IMG/VR virus record: IMGVR_UViG_3300027861_000121
Coordinates: 1 to 32,796 of that record
Length of the DNA: 32,796 nt
Strand: one strand, 5' to 3'
Source: a virus
Shown here: positions 11,866-32,796 of the stretch, in pieces
Numbering within the stretch: the stretch's first letter is position 1
How the letters are laid out: every line of letters starts with the position of its first letter
Position numbers and translations under genes: made by a program
The notes under the pieces: generated by a model
Told to the model about the DNA's origin: nothing
The model's database searches: none
Seen by the model: the letters and a program-made list of their open reading frames with translations, nothing else

Positions 11866-14280
11866 CTCAGCTAAATCAAAACCATCTAAACTATCCTCGT
11901 TAGATTCAAAGTTTATTGGAGGTAGTTTTTCTTGTCTTTGTTGTATTAATTTAGATTGCTCTGTGTTTTGTCTAGATATTCTATCTGACTTAGCACTTTC
12001 CCTAGCTGTCTCCCTTTCTCTTAGTTCATTTAACTCAACACCTTTAAGTTGCATCTGATACATAAACTCTTCTTTCATTAGGACTTTCTTAAGTTCGGCT
12101 TGCCTTTCCATCTTCTGTATCGCAAATTGACTTTCCGCTTGTTCTATTTGAAGTTTAGCTTGGGTTTCTGCTTGTACTTTTTGCATTGCTGACTGAGCCG
12201 CTGCTTGTTGAGATTGCATGTTTACTTGAGATTGTTGTTGCATTTTTTGATTTTCTCTAGCTACATCTTGCTCTTGCTTTTTCTTGCGTTTCAACTTAAG
12301 CATCTCATTGGCCATCTTTAGGTTTCTAACTTCCCTTATGTCTATAGCGTCTTCTAAACCTATTTGATCTCTTTGGAGTGCCATTTGAATGTTTTGCTCT
12401 AGCATTGCTTTTTGCTCCTCATCTGGGGCTACTTGTAAAAATATGCCAAAATCATGTAGGTATAAATCTTTAATTTTATCTAATATAGATACGTTGTATT
12501 TACCTATTTGATTAGCAAACTCTTCTTTAAAATCGGCATACTCTAAAACATCAGCTATCCTTGTTGATAATGCTTCAGCCAGCTTTTGAGTAATTTGAAT
12601 ATTTGCGTCTAATATATGTCTGGTGGCTACATTGGAATTTAAAGCTGCTAGTTTCTGAACACCAACTAAAGCGTCTGGGTTGGGTGTAGATCCATCTCTA
12701 GCTTCATTTAGCCCAGTGACATCTCTAATCATATTTAAGTAGTGATTGTAAGTGTTTATTAAACTTGACATTTTACCTTGCCCACTATTAGTTCCTAACT
12801 CTTTAATAGGAATTTTTCCTTGATTGTATTCACCTTCTTGGGTATAACTTCTACCTATTACACTACCAGTTTGAAAGTATAGCTTTAAAGCATCTTCAGG
12901 ATTGTAAGCTGCTCCAGTTCCTAAATCTACCTCATTCAATCCATCTGCATCAATAAAAACACCATCAGGAACTACTCTCGACATTACTTGCTGTAACTTT
13001 AGGTGGGTGATTTGAATAAGGTCAGCAAATGGAATCATTCTCCTAACTAAAGACTCTACCACACCTTTATACATTCTAGGAGCTGCTCCTATATATGATG
13101 GTAATGCGTATTGTGAAGAAGACTTAGGTCTAACCATGTTTTTTGCTAATTCCCATTTTAAGACTTTAGGAGTTCCCATAACCATAATTCCTTCATACCA
13201 AACGTCTATTCTTTTTTCTAACTTCTCAAATCTTTCTTCTTCTTCAGGTGGATTAAACGTGTCGTCTTTTTTAATTACTTTTTCACCTCCATTGTCCATT
13301 ATTTTTTTCTTATAAACCATCTTTTTAGTGGTCTTATAATTGTAATACAACAGGGTTACTACATCTTTTTGAAATAAACTATCTTGATAAGGTCTTATTA
13401 TTCCATAATAATTATACCATAAAGAAGACATTTGAGCTATCTCCTCCATTTCCTCTAAAGAAATATCTGGGTTTATTTTTACTAGTTCGGTTATAGGTAT
13501 TTGCTTAACTTCACCAAAATAAAAGCAGTCGTCAAAGGTTGGGCTTTCTGTATAGCTGTAAACCAAAGCTGCTGGATCTACGTATTCTATACTTACTCCA
13601 GAGCCTAATTTAAACTCGTGTTTACAAAATGCAGTTCCAAGAACCATCATATCGTAATTAAGTTGTTTTTGTATTCTAGATTTATAATGGTTTTGCTCCA
13701 TCAAAGTATCTAAAGCTTCTTCTTCAGCTATTTCTATAGCTGGTTTGTAATTCATTTGCATATATAACGACAACTCTTCATCTGAATCTGGTAATTCGTC
13801 AGCTGGTACATTATACATGTCTAGGTTATATGTTTCTTTAGTATACTCCAATAGAGGCTTGGAAAGCATATCGGCTTGAATTACCTCTTGAAAAGCATGT
13901 TTTTTCTCAGCTGACAAAGCGTCTTGAGCTACGGCTTTAACATCGAAAATTCTATCTGCCATTCCGTTAACTACAATGTCTACGAATTTGGGAATGATAG
14001 GAACAGGAGTCCAGTCTAAATTTAAGTATGACAAATCTCCATCTACGGATATTTCATTTTTATATTTACCTATAGGTTGCTCTCCTCTTGCGTATAATCT
14101 TAATCTGTGGAACTGAACCCATTGGTCATAAAACCTACAGCTGTTTCCGTCTCTACGAAACCACTCGTACTGAATAGCCTCACCTATTCTTCTTCCATAC
14201 TCAATTGTTTCTTTTTCAGAGTCAGACGCTTCTTGGTTCGGGAAAGTTGTAGGGTTTATTAAAATAATCGGTTCTTTCAT
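11851..14280 (-). CDS. Portal protein
   Basis: 809 residues, located right after TerL (two-base gap) and before the scaffold gene. The N-terminal third contains the LRLYARGEQPIGKYKNE segment followed by a long helical region, and the middle contains GLNEARDGSTPNPDALVGVQ (residues about 523-542), which matches the crown-proximal TG-x-N-x-ARDG type motif of portal proteins. From about residue 640 to 790 it is a long Gln/Glu/Lys-rich helix (repeats such as QQQSQVNMQSQQAAAQSAMQ), as in the barrel and C-terminal extension of long podovirus portals such as that of P22. The protein forms the dodecameric DNA channel of the head, docks the terminase and later the adaptor ring. The assignment rests on gene order, length and motif. 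Confidence 0.8.
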   Translation of the reverse strand: MKEPIILINPTTFPNQEASDSEKETIEYGRRIGEAIQYEWFRRDGNSCRFYDQWVQFHRLRLYARGEQPIGKYKNEISVDGDLSYLNLDWTPVPIIPKFVDIVVNGMADRIFDVKAVAQDALSAEKKHAFQEVIQADMLSKPLLEYTKETYNLDMYNVPADELPDSDEELSLYMQMNYKPAIEIAEEEALDTLMEQNHYKSRIQKQLNYDMMVLGTAFCKHEFKLGSGVSIEYVDPAALVYSYTESPTFDDCFYFGEVKQIPITELVKINPDISLEEMEEIAQMSSLWYNYYGIIRPYQDSLFQKDVVTLLYYNYKTTKKMVYKKKIMDNGGEKVIKKDDTFNPPEEEERFEKLEKRIDVWYEGIMVMGTPKVLKWELAKNMVRPKSSSQYALPSYIGAAPRMYKGVVESLVRRMIPFADLIQITHLKLQQVMSRVVPDGVFIDADGLNEVDLGTGAAYNPEDALKLYFQTGSVIGRSYTQEGEYNQGKIPIKELGTNSGQGKMSSLINTYNHYLNMIRDVTGLNEARDGSTPNPDALVGVQKLAALNSNVATRHILDANIQITQKLAEALSTRIADVLEYADFKEEFANQIGKYNVSILDKIKDLYLHDFGIFLQVAPDEEQKAMLEQNIQMALQRDQIGLEDAIDIREVRNLKMANEMLKLKRKKKQEQDVARENQKMQQQSQVNMQSQQAAAQSAMQKVQAETQAKLQIEQAESQFAIQKMERQAELKKVLMKEEFMYQMQLKGVELNELRERETARESAKSDRISRQNTEQSKLIQQRQEKLPPINFESNEDSLDGFDLAEFEPR

Positions 14281-21936: not shown

Positions 21937-22178
21937 TCATTTATTTCAGGCTCACACCAAGCTGGACTTTTCATTAGGTCCTTAACATCAGAGTGGTTTA
22001 AAATTGAATTAGGGACTACTTGTCCATTATTAATAAATGTAGGTTCTACTCTATAAGATATAACAAATTCCATATTATCAACCGATTGCCTAACTGTAGT
22101 GTTAGTAGTTTGAGCTACTTGTGAAAAATCAATTAAGTTTAGATCCTCTATGTTGCATATTGCGTATGTTTTTTCCAT
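21933..22178 (-). CDS. Small protein of unknown function before the lysis cassette
   Basis: 81 residues, MEKTYAICNIEDLNLIDFSQ then a beta-rich part (MEFVISYRVEPTFINNGQ) and an acidic end (AWCEPEINE). I chose the ATG at 22178 because it lies one base after the stop of the upstream gene (TAA-A-ATG); a longer frame opens at 22199 but would overlap that gene. It overlaps the next gene by four bases. No motif recognised. It may be an accessory of the fibre cluster or of lysis. Confidence 0.55.
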   Translation of the reverse strand: MEKTYAICNIEDLNLIDFSQVAQTTNTTVRQSVDNMEFVISYRVEPTFINNGQVVPNSILNHSDVKDLMKSPAWCEPEINE

Positions 22179-22179
22179 T

Positions 22180-22785
22180 TTAATAACTTTCCACCCCACT
22201 GATTAACATGTCTACATATCCACCAGTTCCTAGGTTGGTTGTGTCTAAGATTACTCCCCAGTCTCCATCGAAAGCGCTACCTCCGCTATCGGCTCCTAAT
22301 CCTATGTTAGCTGCGGTAGATCCTTTTCCAGTAATAAAGTTTGCTCGTGTTCCACTAGTTCCTACGCCAAATTGTTGGCTACAAATGCTACCTATTTGAA
22401 CTGCTACAAAATCATTTGAGTTTAAAGCGTCATTCCATGTTGTTCCTAAATACTTTTGAGTTCCACTACTTGATGTGCTTCCTTCTTCTACGTGAAAATC
22501 TAGAGATGACCCTACTAGATAAACCCATCTATATTTAAAGATTAACCCACTATCTGAGTATAGTTGTATCATGTTTGCGTCCATAAATGTACCTAAATCT
22601 CCACTAACTTGTGTAGGGTTCTGGCAATAAGCCATTGGTTGTTCAAAGGTGGTGTTGAATACAGTTTGTCCTTCGCTTAGAGATAAGTCTTGAATAAAGC
22701 CCGAACCATAAGTTGTGCCATTCATTATAGCCCATATTTTCTCTCTATTTAATTTACCGTATGTGTAGAAACCTTGAAATGCCAT
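22180..22785 (-). CDS. Tail or fibre-associated protein
   Basis: 201 residues, beta-rich and rich in Gly, Ser and Thr, with a start MAFQGFYTYGKLNREKIWAI and a middle GLIFKYRWVYLVGSSLDFHV. The composition and the place within five consecutive genes of similar style suggest a virion surface, fibre or baseplate-type protein. No catalytic motif was seen. It starts two bases before the end of the intergenic gap to the 169-residue gene, so the cluster is read as one operon. Function not recognised. Confidence 0.55.
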   Translation of the reverse strand: MAFQGFYTYGKLNREKIWAIMNGTTYGSGFIQDLSLSEGQTVFNTTFEQPMAYCQNPTQVSGDLGTFMDANMIQLYSDSGLIFKYRWVYLVGSSLDFHVEEGSTSSSGTQKYLGTTWNDALNSNDFVAVQIGSICSQQFGVGTSGTRANFITGKGSTAANIGLGADSGGSAFDGDWGVILDTTNLGTGGYVDMLISGVESY

Positions 22786-26941: not shown

Positions 26942-27091
26942 TTATTTGTTTTTGTAAGGGAAGATGTCATTCAAGGTTCTTCTACGCCTATCGCACCCAC
27001 AGTCTTTGTTTTCAAACATTTTAGAAATACCTGTCACATCAGTAAATTGCTTTATTGTGTCACCAAATCCTTCTGCTTGTTTTTTTTTCAT
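26942..27091 (-). CDS. 49-residue conserved phage protein with DCGC motif
   Basis: A short frame that reads MKKKQAEGFGDTIKQFTDVT, then GISKMFENKDCGCDRRRRTL and NDIFPYKNK. The order FGDTI, TGI, DCGCxxRRxxLN, FPY is a pattern I know from many small genes of Bacteroidota and marine phages, which is why I call it despite its size. The two cysteines and the Arg-rich stretch suggest metal or nucleic-acid contact; no function is known to me. A TATCTTTG element lies 22 bases upstream. Its ATG overlaps the ATG of the plus-strand gene within the same CATG. Confidence 0.75.
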   Translation of the reverse strand: MKKKQAEGFGDTIKQFTDVTGISKMFENKDCGCDRRRRTLNDIFPYKNK

Positions 27092-27542
27092 GAGTTTAAT
27101 TCGTTATCATTGCAAAGATAAGAATAAAATACAATTTAAAGTGGCTCACGAATTTTTAAAACATTGGAGAGTTGTTAGATACCTCATAAAAAAGCAATAC
27201 GACCTAAGTCAGCAAGATTTAGAGATGCTTTTATTCCTATATAGTGAAGGAAGGTTTACTAAGGATGATTTTTCTTTTTATGAAGGTATAATGTCTTGGG
27301 ACTCTCAAAGATTTGCTAGATTAAAGAACGATGGATGGATAAATCAATGGAGAAAAAACTACGGAAACAAAAGAGCCATCTATTGCTTATCCCATAGGGG
27401 TAAAACAGTGATGGCTCGTGTGTATCGTTTATTATTGGGAGAGGAAAAGTTTCCTGAAAGCGCCAGAAATCCTCTTCATGATAAAACTACCGGCTTTGAA
27501 GCTAGATATTTACAAACAATGAAGAAAATTAACAGAAACTAG
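27090..27542 (+). CDS. Winged-helix (MarR-like) DNA-binding protein, putative regulator
   Basis: 150 residues from the ATG at 27090 (MSLIRYHCKDKNK); an open frame extends back to 26964, but that part lies antisense to the DCGC gene and has unlikely sequence. The order of elements fits a winged helix-turn-helix: helix LSQQDLEMLLFLYSEGRFTK (about 37-56), recognition-helix region MSWDSQRFARLKNDGWINQW (67-86), a wing around NYGNKRAIYCLSHRG, then helix KTVMARVYRLLLG. It is the only clear plus-strand gene. I recall similar proteins in marine Bacteroidota phages. It is a candidate repressor or switch for the repeat-rich region or for the divergent genes; target sites are unknown. Confidence 0.75.
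   Translation: MSLIRYHCKDKNKIQFKVAHEFLKHWRVVRYLIKKQYDLSQQDLEMLLFLYSEGRFTKDDFSFYEGIMSWDSQRFARLKNDGWINQWRKNYGNKRAIYCLSHRGKTVMARVYRLLLGEEKFPESARNPLHDKTTGFEARYLQTMKKINRN
27113..27120 (-). promoter_or_regulatory. -7 element TATCTTTG before the DCGC gene
   Basis: TATCTTTG on the minus strand, ending 21 bases before the ATG at 27091. The element lies inside codons 8-11 of the plus-strand winged-helix gene. There is no TTG at a suitable distance. If active, the promoter is inside the coding sequence of the divergent gene. Confidence 0.45.
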
Positions 27543-29726: not shown

Positions 29727-29897
29727 TTATTTGTTTTTAAATTTAACTGGATACTTAGATAAGTACGGAATCACATCTTTTAGTTTTGCAAACTTTATGT
29801 AATCCCCTTTCTCATCTAATACTTTTATCATTTTAATCACAATGTCTTGGCCGTCATAATCATATCTTACTATTTCAAGACTATGTGGTTTTTTCAT
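29727..29897 (-). CDS. 56-residue protein after groEL
   Basis: A short frame from the ATG at 29897: MKKPHSLEIVRYDYDGQDIV, then IKMIKVLDEKGDYIKFAKLK and DVIPYLSKYPVKFKNK. The ATG overlaps the groEL stop (ATGA), and the stop lies one base before the next ATG, so both ends are coupled to recognised genes. This is the main evidence that it is real. Charged and probably a small alpha/beta fold. No motif recognised. Confidence 0.6.
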   Translation of the reverse strand: MKKPHSLEIVRYDYDGQDIVIKMIKVLDEKGDYIKFAKLKDVIPYLSKYPVKFKNK

Positions 29898-31465
29898 TTT
29901 AAATCTCTTACGTTGGTTATAATTGCATTGGTGCTAAGTATGGTCGATGCTATAGAGATAGCGTTTGTAACGGCACTCTTAGTTACTTTTGAGGGGTCTA
30001 TGATTCCTAGTTTAATCATGTTTCCGTATTTATCATTCTTCACATCATAGCCAACCCCAGGATCGAGACAATTTTCAATTTGATTCTTATCTAGTCCGGC
30101 ATTACTCAGTATTTGATAGAACGGTGACTTAAGTGCGTCCTCTAAAATTTTCATCGCTACTCTTTGGTTTTGGCCATCACCGAGCTTTGCGAGGTCGTCC
30201 GCAATTTCTTTTAAAGCCACGCCGCCTCCAGGTAGGATTCCATCTTCGAGAGCTGCTCTTGTAGCGCAAACTGCATCGTCTACTCTGTCTCTTTTTTCCT
30301 TTTGCTCAATATCTGAGTTCGCCCCGACATGGATAACTCCAATTTTGCCAGAAATCAACGCTATACGCTCCTTTATAAAATCTGCGTCCTTAGATGTTTC
30401 GTGTAAATCCCATAACGACTTAACGTGAGATTCTATTTCGACATCTATGTAAGGGTCTTCATGTCTAACAATAATTGTGTTGGCTGCGTCTACGATAACC
30501 TTTCGGGCGGAACCTAGGTCTTCTTGACGTACTAGCTGAAAATTATCACCAGTATCCTCACTGAAGTAAGTAGCTCCGGTGGCTGTAGCTAGGTCTTGCA
30601 TTAATTCATCTTTCTTCCATCCGAACTGTGGTGGTTGTACTACACAAATCTTTAATCCGTTTCTGACTTTGTTTAAATTTAAAGTATTCATGACTTTAGC
30701 ATCCACATCTCCTATGATAAGTATAGACTTTCCGTTCTGCATTACATCGGCTAGTACAGCTTCAATAGAGCCTATGCTTTCTACAGTTGAGTTTAGTATT
30801 AAAATGTAAGGGTTGTCTAAAACGCACTCTTCAGATTTATTGTCTGTTATAAAGTACCTGGACATGTATCCTCTTTGTAGTCTCATACCCTCACTTGTGG
30901 AGAACCACGTTTCGTGGCCATTAGAATTTTCTACTGTAACAACCCCAGAGGTTCCTACCTTAGCATATGCATCAGCTATAATCTTACCGATCTCTTTGTC
31001 GTTGTTAGCGGAAACGCTCGCCACATCTAAAATCTTTTTAGCGGAAACTTTTTTCTTTTTCTTATCTAGCATTGAGATTATCAAATTGGTAGATTCCTGT
31101 AGATTACGCATAATCTCTGTTAAATTCATGTGAGGTTGAATTCTTTCTTGAGCCGCATCTATAATGGCTTGAGTTAAAACGATAGCTGTTGTAGTTCCGT
31201 CTCCAGCTTCATTCGCTGTTCTCTCAGCTGCCTCTCTAATTATACGTACCGCTAAATCTTCTGTGGGGTCTAAAAGGTTTATACTCTTAGCTACTGTGAC
31301 ACCATCCTTAGTGATGGTTACTCCTCCTGCATGGTTTTCTGATTCTATCAAAACTGTTTTTCCTCTAGCTCCTAAAGTACTCTTTACAGCATCAGCTATT
31401 TTATTAACGCCACTGATCAAGCGTTCTCTCGCTTCCTTATCGAAGCTTATGTCTTTTACTATCAT
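29894..31465 (-). CDS. groEL: Phage-encoded GroEL chaperonin
   Basis: 523 residues; aligned by eye to E. coli GroEL from start to near the end. Nucleotide-binding motifs are intact: ITKDGVTVA (Asp54), AGDGTTTA (Asp89) and DDAVCATRAALEDG with Asp397, the equivalents of E. coli D52, D87 and D398. The apical domain keeps GYMSRYF (Y200, Y204, F205) but carries a Glu at the L234 position and Asn at V263. The protein stops at NVRDLK, so the flexible GGM-repeat tail is absent. It would form a double ring that folds proteins with GroES-type lids. It is the first gene of its operon with an exact TTTG-N19-TATATTTG promoter and a leader of about 20 bases. Phage GroEL proteins are known from several giant and marine phages; a host gene caught by contamination is unlikely because all neighbours are phage genes. 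Confidence 0.95.
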   Translation of the reverse strand: MIVKDISFDKEARERLISGVNKIADAVKSTLGARGKTVLIESENHAGGVTITKDGVTVAKSINLLDPTEDLAVRIIREAAERTANEAGDGTTTAIVLTQAIIDAAQERIQPHMNLTEIMRNLQESTNLIISMLDKKKKKVSAKKILDVASVSANNDKEIGKIIADAYAKVGTSGVVTVENSNGHETWFSTSEGMRLQRGYMSRYFITDNKSEECVLDNPYILILNSTVESIGSIEAVLADVMQNGKSILIIGDVDAKVMNTLNLNKVRNGLKICVVQPPQFGWKKDELMQDLATATGATYFSEDTGDNFQLVRQEDLGSARKVIVDAANTIIVRHEDPYIDVEIESHVKSLWDLHETSKDADFIKERIALISGKIGVIHVGANSDIEQKEKRDRVDDAVCATRAALEDGILPGGGVALKEIADDLAKLGDGQNQRVAMKILEDALKSPFYQILSNAGLDKNQIENCLDPGVGYDVKNDKYGNMIKLGIIDPSKVTKSAVTNAISIASTILSTNAIITNVRDLK

Positions 31466-31491
31466 GAATTAAATTTTATTAAAGTCTTAGA

Positions 31492-31522
31492 CAAATATAT
31501 ACAAAAACCACACCTAACCAAA
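31492..31522 (-). promoter_or_regulatory. Promoter of the groEL operon: TTTG-N19-TATATTTG
   Basis: The minus strand has TTTG at 31522-31519, exactly 19 bases, then TATATTTG at 31499-31492. This is a perfect match to the Bacteroidota housekeeping consensus. Transcription should start near 31486, about 20 bases before the ATG at 31465. It suggests use of the unmodified host RNA polymerase. Confidence 0.75.
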
Positions 31523-31727
31523 ATACATGTCAAATAGTCCATAATGTTGGAATGTTACTTTTTAAGCCCCTATACTTCTTTTTTATTTTTACTACTTTCT
31601 TTTTATATTTTTTTTTTCCTCACGTAGAGAAAAACCAACATATAACATAGTCAAAAGTATATATTACTGATTTACAGTAAGTTAGAGTAGGTTACCTACT
31701 ATGTTAGTTTAAGTAAAAACCAACATG

Positions 31728-31757
31728 AAACCAACATAGAATGTTAAAACCAACATA
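31728..31757. repeat. Direct repeat, copy 1 (30 bp)
   Basis: A 30-bp unit starting AAACCAACATAGAATGTT and ending AAAACCAACATA, identical to the copy at 31844-31873. Each unit contains two CCAACAT iterons around an AATGTT half-site. The two copies are 116 bases apart, about eleven helical turns. Confidence 0.85.
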
Positions 31758-31843
31758 CTTTTAGCACAATTATCCGTTTTAAAACGTTTAATACCGTTTA
31801 AGTCAACTGCAAAAAAGTGGTCAGAAAGTGGTCGGATTTACAA

Positions 31844-31873
31844 AAACCAACATAGAATGTTAAAACCAACATA
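31844..31873. repeat. Direct repeat, copy 2 (30 bp)
   Basis: Identical to the 30-bp unit at 31728-31757. It ends 22 bases before the stop codon of the 52-residue gene. The identity over 30 bases in a fast-changing non-coding stretch suggests selection or a recent duplication. Confidence 0.85.
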
Positions 31874-31895
31874 GTTTTATGTTACAAAAATGTTA

Positions 31896-32054
31896 CTATG
31901 AACCACACCCAATGCAGTCAAAGTGGGAGTCTTCAGGCTTTACTCCTTTATCTTTCATTTCTAGATTATGTATCTGATCACGTATACTCATGTCATTCAT
32001 CATGTCACCAGTGAGTTTACTTTTTAGAATTTCTATTTCTTCTTTTATATTCAT
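31896..32054 (-). CDS. 52-residue conserved phage protein with CIGCGS end
   Basis: The frame reads MNIKEEIEILKSKLTGDMMN, DMSIRDQIHNLEMKDKGVKP and EDSHFDCIGCGS. The helical first part and the end with a Cys-x-x-Cys pair match a pattern I know from short proteins in many marine phages. One CxxC is half a zinc site, so metal binding would need a dimer or a partner. It is the last gene before the repeat region. Function unknown. Confidence 0.75.
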   Translation of the reverse strand: MNIKEEIEILKSKLTGDMMNDMSIRDQIHNLEMKDKGVKPEDSHFDCIGCGS

Positions 32055-32074
32055 TGTGTATTATTTATTAGCGC

Positions 32075-32104
32075 AAAAAAAAGGTGCTACGATTAAGCAA
32101 CACC
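32075..32104 (-). terminator. Intrinsic terminator after the 59-residue gene
   Basis: On the minus strand GGTGTTGC-TTAATC-GTAGCACC (32104-32083; 8-bp stem with two G-T pairs) is followed by eight T (32082-32075). It lies 48 bases after the stop of the 59-residue gene and 20 bases before the CIGCGS gene, so that gene must have its own promoter or be read through. Confidence 0.75.
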
Positions 32105-32151
32105 TCCTTTTTTCCATCAAGAGAACGAGAACTATATGGAGAAAGAAATCG

Positions 32152-32331
32152 TTATAATTTTTTAAATAAGTCTATGTTCATGTTAGCTAGCTCATTTCCT
32201 TCAGCTATCATTCTAACCTTTTCTGCTCTTTTCATTTCCTTACGAAAGCGAGCTGCCTTTGAAAGCCCCATCTCCAATTCTGGAGCGTTGTTTATGAGTC
32301 TTCCTTTTTTGATTGTGTAATCTCTATCCAT
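32152..32331 (-). CDS. Small basic protein of unknown function
   Basis: 59 residues from the second of two adjacent ATG codons (MDRDYTIKKGRLINNAPELE, then MGLSKAARFRKEMKRAEKVR and an Asn/Leu-rich end). Starting at the first ATG (32334) adds one Met. Helical and basic. A TATATTTG element lies eight bases upstream, and the gene ends in front of a terminator, so it looks like a complete small unit. No motif recognised. Confidence 0.55.
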   Translation of the reverse strand: MDRDYTIKKGRLINNAPELEMGLSKAARFRKEMKRAEKVRMIAEGNELANMNIDLFKKL

Positions 32332-32339
32332 CATAGATA

Positions 32340-32347
32340 CAAATATA
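32340..32347 (-). promoter_or_regulatory. -7 element TATATTTG next to the 59-residue gene
   Basis: The minus strand reads TATATTTG-TATCT-ATGATG. The element is identical to the groEL -7 element but has no TTG at -33. The transcript would begin at or beside the start codon. Confidence 0.4.
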
Positions 32348-32352
32348 CTAAA

Positions 32353-32490
32353 TTATTTCCATATAAATACTAAGCGCACTACCAGTAATGACATTATAAA
32401 TTCCTTGTAATCGTGATTGGTGTCTGGGCTGTAATACTCTACACCTACTAACACTCCAACTTTAAGTAAACTCTCTAAGTAAATCTCCAT
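32353..32490 (-). CDS. 45-residue membrane-type protein
   Basis: MEIYLESLLKVGVLVGVEYY, then SPDTNHDYKEFIMSLLVVRL and VFIWK. A hydrophobic first third and a second hydrophobic segment near the end suggest two short membrane helices around a polar loop (SPDTNHDYKE). A TACCTTTG element lies five bases upstream. It is the first gene after the GT-rich end. Evidence beyond an intact frame and the promoter element is limited. Confidence 0.45.
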   Translation of the reverse strand: MEIYLESLLKVGVLVGVEYYSPDTNHDYKEFIMSLLVVRLVFIWK

Positions 32491-32495
32491 TAATA

Positions 32496-32503
32496 CAAAG
32501 GTA
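32496..32503 (-). promoter_or_regulatory. -7 element TACCTTTG before the first small gene
   Basis: The minus strand reads TACCTTTG-TATTA-ATG. A match to TAnnTTTG without a TTG at -33. A transcript from it would be leaderless or nearly so. Confidence 0.35.
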
Positions 32504-32796
32504 AAAATTAATATGGCATAAATAGAAGTAATGGGTTATATGTACGTGTCACGCCAGGTGTGGCAAAAAAAAAACCGGTTGGTTCTTCATGGGGGGGTGT
32601 TAAAAAATCCTTTTTACTTTCCGTTTTTTTGGCTTTTGGTTTATGTATACATGTATACTATTATTTGTGTGGTGTTGGTTGGTTGGTGTTGGTGTTGTTG
32701 TTCCGTTTGTTGGTGTTGTTCCTTGTGTCCTTTGTTCCTTCCTCCCTTCCTCCCTTGTTACCTTCTTAAAGTGTACTATTAACAGAGGTAAAGGAA
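32504..32796. other. GT- and pyrimidine-rich non-coding end
   Basis: About 290 bases without a credible gene. The plus strand is rich in T, G and C runs and poor in A. It holds a perfect 14-bp palindrome GTATACATGTATAC (32645-32658), five GG pairs in a row at 32671-32692 (GGTGTTGGTTGGTTGGTG and one more), and a pyrimidine tract with TTCCTCCC twice (about 32738-32754). Translated frames across it are low in complexity (strings of Cys, Trp and Val), which argues against coding. Whether the end of the window is a natural genome end cannot be told. Confidence 0.5.

Follow-up and report, generated by a model that had tools for sequence, protein, structure and literature searches.

Upstream of a phage groEL gene, in the 32,796-base window analysed here (the whole stretch, a linear fragment from an IMG/VR virus record), lies a compact array of short repeats (Table 1) that we interpret with moderate confidence as a replication-origin-type nucleoprotein site of a Bacteroidota podovirus, either an origin or a replication-control module. 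The joint presence of iterated repeats, a putative bend site, a candidate unwinding tract and, in relatives, a further copy beside the ssb and primase genes points to replication initiation or its control. The parts themselves are ordinary; what is new is their combination and distribution, namely an iteron/IHF-type module with lineage-private boxes.

The region had been described from the sequence alone as intergenic and rich in repeats, and both descriptions hold. It lies between the groEL start and the end of a 52-aa reading frame, and every named repeat is present. Besides six direct copies of CCAACAT and one inverse copy, ATGTTGG, there is an exact 30-bp duplication (31728-31757 and 31844-31873), CGTTTAA occurs twice (31785 and 31795), and ATGTTAC is found at 31552, at 31879 and at 31890-31896, the third copy crossing the end originally assigned to the region. 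In 2000 dinucleotide shuffles of the 373 bases, neither the seven CCAACAT/ATGTTGG copies (shuffle mean 0.06, maximum 2) nor the duplication (longest exact repeat 30, shuffle maximum 16) was ever reached, while the commonest 7-mer occurs seven times against a shuffle maximum of six. ATGTTG is present in 7 copies within 450 bp, compared to 0.19 expected from the remainder of the window. The unit is better delimited as approximately 31492-31900, with the groEL promoter side included. An A/T-rich region beside the repeats, present in the window and in the inspected relatives, is a candidate unwinding region. Searching viral contigs with the 26-bp exact repeat pattern returned no match, no known RNA was matched, and no host DnaA box was recognised by eye in the window module. 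A perfect inverted repeat, AGTAGGTTACCTACT, adjoins the palindrome described below at 31686-31700, and its part GTAACCTACT also occurs in two relatives (L002 and L027).

Table 1. Coordinates of the module, its elements and neighbouring genes in the window.
Feature	Position	Strand	Remarks
Winged-helix-like regulator, conserved	26964-27542	+	phrog_17028/12817; start probably 27090
Phage groEL (Cpn60)	29894-31465	-	Pfam PF00118, E 3e-64; phrog_5725
groEL promoter -7 element TATATATTTG	31492-31501	-	Bacteroidota TAnnTTTG type; read from the sequence; same element before groEL in relatives
Iteron/bend-site module, groEL sense	31523-31898	-	Intergenic
Inverted iteron ATGTTGG (31544) with adjacent ATGTTAC	31544-31558	+	Between A/T tract and groEL promoter
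A/T-rich tract, A-rich in groEL sense	31573-31632	-	Preceded by TCTACGT; candidate DNA-unwinding element
Iteron ATGTTGG	31635-31641	-	Between dyad and A/T tract; +35 from dyad centre
Near-palindrome (dyad), window copy CTAACTTACTGTAAATCAGTAATAT	31661-31685	-	PWM score 21.0, shuffle maximum 14.6; 196-220 bp before groEL ATG
Three direct iterons (31720-31726, 31731-31737, 31750-31756)	31720-31756	-	About -50, -61 and -80 from dyad centre
TTAAACGGTATTAAACGTTTTAAAACGGATAA block	31770-31801	-	Invariant alignment columns; nearest clade only (L002, L003, L004, L026, L027)
Two GACCACTT (AAGTGGTC) copies, AAGTGGTC at 31815 and 31826	31815-31833	-	Common to L002 and L026
Two distal direct iterons (31847-31853, 31866-31872)	31847-31872	-	In second copy of the 30-bp duplication
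52-aa reading frame bordering module	31896-32054	-	Without family match

GroEL searches of viral contigs yielded 11 and then 80 loci, to which the circular podovirus record MW202828 was added, and 84 groEL-upstream regions from this phage family formed the comparison set. Conservation in related phages had been proposed as a check on the region, and the repeats are indeed not lost in close relatives: short repeats occupy the same place in most relatives, whether complete or partial, with a different repeat sequence. A common plan is recognisable in about 50 of the 84 regions. Toward groEL, direct iterons come first, then a 25-bp near-palindrome and a pair of iterons spaced about 9 bp, followed by an A/T tract, the inverted iterons and the promoter. 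The iteron sequence varies by lineage (TGTTGG, TGTCGA, TATTCCA, TGTGACA and others), and the positions are kept to within a few bases or moved by about one helical turn. More specifically, ATGTTGG is the box of the window phage and L002, [AG]TGTT[GA] forms occur in L003 and L026, ATGACAA/TTGTCAT in L004, TATTCCA in L027, L034 and L038, GTGACA in L028, L075 and L098, and TGTCGA in MW202828 and many other relatives.

The geometry of the boxes is best described relative to the dyad centre of the palindrome. In relatives, direct boxes are located at approximately -25, -36, -50 and -61, and those past the centre lie at +16/+25 in some phages and at +26/+35 in others, a 10-bp alternative corresponding to one turn. 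Inverted boxes follow at +104 to +130, beyond the A/T tract, in many of them. Comparison of the window with the L027 phage illustrates how the iteron set changes together while its positions persist: ATGTTGG occurs 79, 170, 255, 266, 285, 382 and 401 bp before groEL in the window, and ATTCCA occurs 80, 176, 243, 254, 265, 284, 400 and 409 bp before groEL in L027. The alignment of the nearest clade likewise has the same positions filled and the box letters changed. Such a concerted change at kept positions is what sites of a co-evolving protein would give, and it spans phages with approximately 50-60% GroEL identity. The local box is strongly enriched at this place, relative to the rest of its own genome, in most of the near-complete relatives tested. 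The 7-mer shuffle test was significant (p 0.05) in 19 of 49 regions with the palindrome and in 3 of 30 without it, indicating that repeat excess is associated with the palindrome, yet is not strong in every phage.

The 25-bp element itself, YTAACTWAYTGATWATYARTACTTW, occurs in about 50 of the 84 regions, where it mostly precedes groEL by 180-420 bp and keeps one orientation. Its top position weight matrix matches score about 32 bits, compared to a shuffle maximum of 14.6, and the window copy is among the more diverged ones. The palindrome is composed of two IHF consensus half-sites back to back, YAANNNNYTGATW and WATCARNNNNTTR, flanking a central W (consensus WATCARNNNNTTR from PMC8421141). 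The left half has no mismatch to WATCARNNNNTTR in 38 of 49 copies and the right half at most one in 25 of 49, whereas only about 0.2% of random sites come within one mismatch. The consensus element fits the sequence of an IHF/DNABII site, and the window copy, compared by eye, departs from it by two mismatches in the left half and one in the right. We infer that a homodimeric DNABII protein would recognise the palindrome as a symmetric site. A phage-encoded HU/IHF protein was rejected as the bending factor, since no DNABII (HU/IHF) gene was found in 28 phage contigs; a host DNABII protein is therefore assumed. Literature searches for the palindrome sequence or for Bacteroidota iteron phages retrieved nothing relevant.

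In several near-complete relatives, a second module is present some 10 kb toward the early genes, in the interval that separates the 3' end of ssb from the primase gene. The latter encodes an 800-aa protein of the primase-helicase type with BT4734-like_N, PriCT_1 and DUF5906 domains; ssb, a small protein without a Pfam match, was called from its acidic DLPF/ELPF-type tail and its position. The boxes of the second copy match the groEL-side boxes of the same phage. Its palindrome is recognisable in G016, G020 and MW202828 and weaker in G024 and G026, and in these five genomes both dyads share one genomic orientation, with groEL and primase transcribed oppositely. Boxes without a clear palindrome are found at this place in G003, G018, G031 and G004. 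In G012, the nearest relative whose contig includes the primase gene, that gene is not preceded by a second copy. As the window contig ends before the early genes, the second copy is known from relatives only, and so are the DnaA domain IV proteins discussed below. The cumulative skew turns within approximately 0.3-3.5 kb of the region in most near-complete relatives, a signal confounded with divergent transcription, and its minimum moves when contigs are rotated or treated as circular. With genes diverging at the region and a shifting minimum, the skew does not decide the origin question. The earlier suggestion of a replication origin or control region is nevertheless supported by the conserved plan, by the second copy at ssb and primase and, within that confounding, by the nearby skew turn.

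Protein binding, bending, unwinding and origin activity at the module are what we infer from this arrangement. A quickly evolving, sequence-specific phage protein would bind the direct iterons on both sides of the palindrome, and a host IHF/HU-type (DNABII) protein would bend the DNA at the palindrome, uniting the two iteron groups. The loaded complex may then melt or mark the adjacent A/T tract, at which a primase-helicase could enter, and the iteron-binding protein could also tune the adjacent groEL promoter.

The winged-helix protein at 27090-27542 had been put forward as a possible binder, which the comparison does not bear out. This regulator is conserved together with groEL in the relatives, and its predicted DNA-binding helix-turn-helix segment is nearly unchanged where the iterons differ completely, for example between L038 (TATTCCA) and L042 (TGTCGC); without covariation across iteron types, it was rejected as the iteron reader. 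For the L003 phage, the winged-helix regulator is matched as two pieces (L017 and L025; G002:C1:18193-18763), each of them containing a stop codon.

Stand-alone DnaA domain IV proteins (PF08299) were found in 20 of 28 contigs, often two per genome, as proteins of about 100-200 aa matched to the DNA-binding domain only. L013 encodes two different ones, at 13034-13333 and 22108-22674. Across 12 phages, and with the remainder of the alignment taken into account, the residue windows that best track the iteron differences fall in the DnaA recognition motif; the chosen window has a partial r of 0.26 (Mantel p 0.03). The test was small, and this protein family was one of three considered. The strand and register of odd boxes were set by hand, so this covariation is a lead only, and we treat these proteins as a weakly supported leading candidate for the iteron reader. 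In the G013 phage, whose contig is without most early genes, no protein of the late arm follows the iteron type over the phylogeny.

Compared with well-characterized systems, the module would work like an iteron origin, and we regard it as a candidate origin only. As in such origins, direct repeats are clustered at one or a few places of the replicon. The closest working model is the origin of pSC101, which has three iterons and requires IHF binding (PMC4980987). The iteron plasmid origins of pSC101 and R6K resemble the module in joining direct iterons, an IHF-type site and an A/T-rich tract. They differ from it in that the plasmid iterons measure 17-22 bp and the phage boxes about 7-9 bp, the phage boxes lie on both sides of the bend site, the window has no adjacent Rep protein gene, and several relatives carry two module copies per genome. 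Bacterial oriC likewise combines an IHF-type site with an unwinding tract (DUE) and with short boxes spaced about 9 bp from one another. Our own comparison finds a likeness between TGTCGAT, the box most often seen in the phages, and TGTGGAT, the complement of the DnaA box; the DnaA domain IV proteins described above are also encoded by many of these phages. The phage boxes vary from lineage to lineage, however, and unlike those of oriC they are not DnaA boxes.

A more specific and more speculative proposal, which we think rather unlikely, can also be made. In this Bacteroidota phage family, a detached DnaA domain IV protein would read lineage-specific DnaA-like boxes, a symmetric site for the homodimeric host DNABII protein would arrange the boxes, and two direct module copies per genome would start replication. 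Box and reader would co-evolve into a private origin code for each lineage, and the bend site would be common to unrelated Bacteroidota mobile elements. If the replication interpretation is right, the origin or replication switch of a widespread, apparently unstudied Bacteroidota phage family is located. Furthermore, the family would provide proteins and boxes of matched specificity in a natural series, and a common host bending site with the consensus given here would be expected in phages, plasmids and integrative elements of Bacteroidota.

The main rival to replication is transcriptional control; the module borders a promoter, and its role could be purely regulatory. The two modules would then form an operator pair, with a phage repressor or activator on the iterons at groEL and primase and host IHF-type looping acting as an early/late switch and no replication start, an account that is possible but to our mind doubtful. 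In its favour, the module lies directly upstream of groEL and, as the second copy, of the primase gene. Inverted iterons are located about 60 bp before the predicted groEL transcription start. A terminator also precedes the module in many relatives. However, the two copies point the same way in the genome but opposite ways with respect to the genes they adjoin, the distance to the groEL promoter is 80-350 bp for most iterons, and the conserved regulator nearby shows no covariation with them.

The replication interpretation was also weighed against a cos/pac site of the lambda cosB kind, at which packaging would start and sites for the small terminase subunit would flank an IHF site. In phage lambda, cosB also joins repeats with an IHF site, and both lambda cosB and attP share with the module the joining of protein-specific repeats to IHF sites. 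Contig ends accumulate upstream of groEL (31466-32796 in the window): of 67 contigs with a length of 15 kb or more, 29 end within 4.5 kb of the gene on that side, about three times the roughly 10 expected. Either a physical genome end or a break of the assembly in a low-complexity tract that varies could account for this. The ends do not fall at a single position, however, and MW202828 is recorded as circular. Moreover, the terminase genes are far from the module, unlike in lambda: the large frames of the window matching the MW202828 terminase/portal order are approximately 14-17 kb away. With two module copies per genome as well, we consider a packaging site improbable. A GGTT/CCTT-rich low-complexity non-coding tract occupies window positions 32540-32760; it is different in L002, and MW202828 has a GTCGCG/GTGTGT-rich tract at the corresponding place.

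An attachment site (attP), with arm-type repeats around a recombination core, is less credible still. The same palindrome does adjoin a tyrosine integrase gene in three integrative loci (L115, L134 and L151), but the tyrosine-integrase family PF00589, the one searched for, was found in none of 28 contigs of the phage family, with 14 of 14 controls positive. This difference from lambda makes attP unlikely and largely refutes it, and the window contains no tRNA gene. Neutral sequence, that is, chance repeats and simple-sequence drift, is the least credible explanation. An A/T-rich spacer and the absence of the 30-bp duplication from L002 speak for it, but the shuffle tests and the positional conservation across divergent GroEL proteins refute it.

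Beyond the phage family, plasmids, phages and integrative elements of Bacteroidota also carry the palindrome, accompanied there by other iterons. Its core was found in 50 stretches among the genomes of 84,980 species, mostly Bacteroidota. In cyanobacteria, the palindrome is present in 2 of 194 genomes, and the core matches represent one conserved coding sequence. A common chromosomal element was rejected: among 296 Bacteroidota genomes only 4 had the palindrome, the chosen centre included, with a backwards control of 0. It lies near replication (Rep) genes in two Bacteroidota plasmids and after the ssb gene in Cellulophaga phage phi19:3. Several Bacteroidota and viral loci surround the core with local repeats of their own. 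In L174, twelve copies of TGTAGCA surround it after a DnaG-type primase gene, in L167 TGTGACAC forms the local repeats around the palindrome, and in L137 and L161 CCGG-type boxes take this place.

The latter two loci contain direct repeat units of about 250 bp (L137 3980-4310, L161 400-760). Every unit holds the palindrome together with CCGG-type boxes, and the array might serve attachment or replication. In one Saprospiraceae MAG (L125, L135, L140, L145, L149, L155 and L160), the core lies inside a dispersed, MITE-like element with inverted ends GACTTTATTCGAAA...TTTCGAATAAAGTC. Four dispersed palindrome copies whose flanks resemble one another occur in a MAG labelled Roseburia (L121, L127, L146 and L154); this may be Bacteroidota DNA that was mis-binned or mislabelled.
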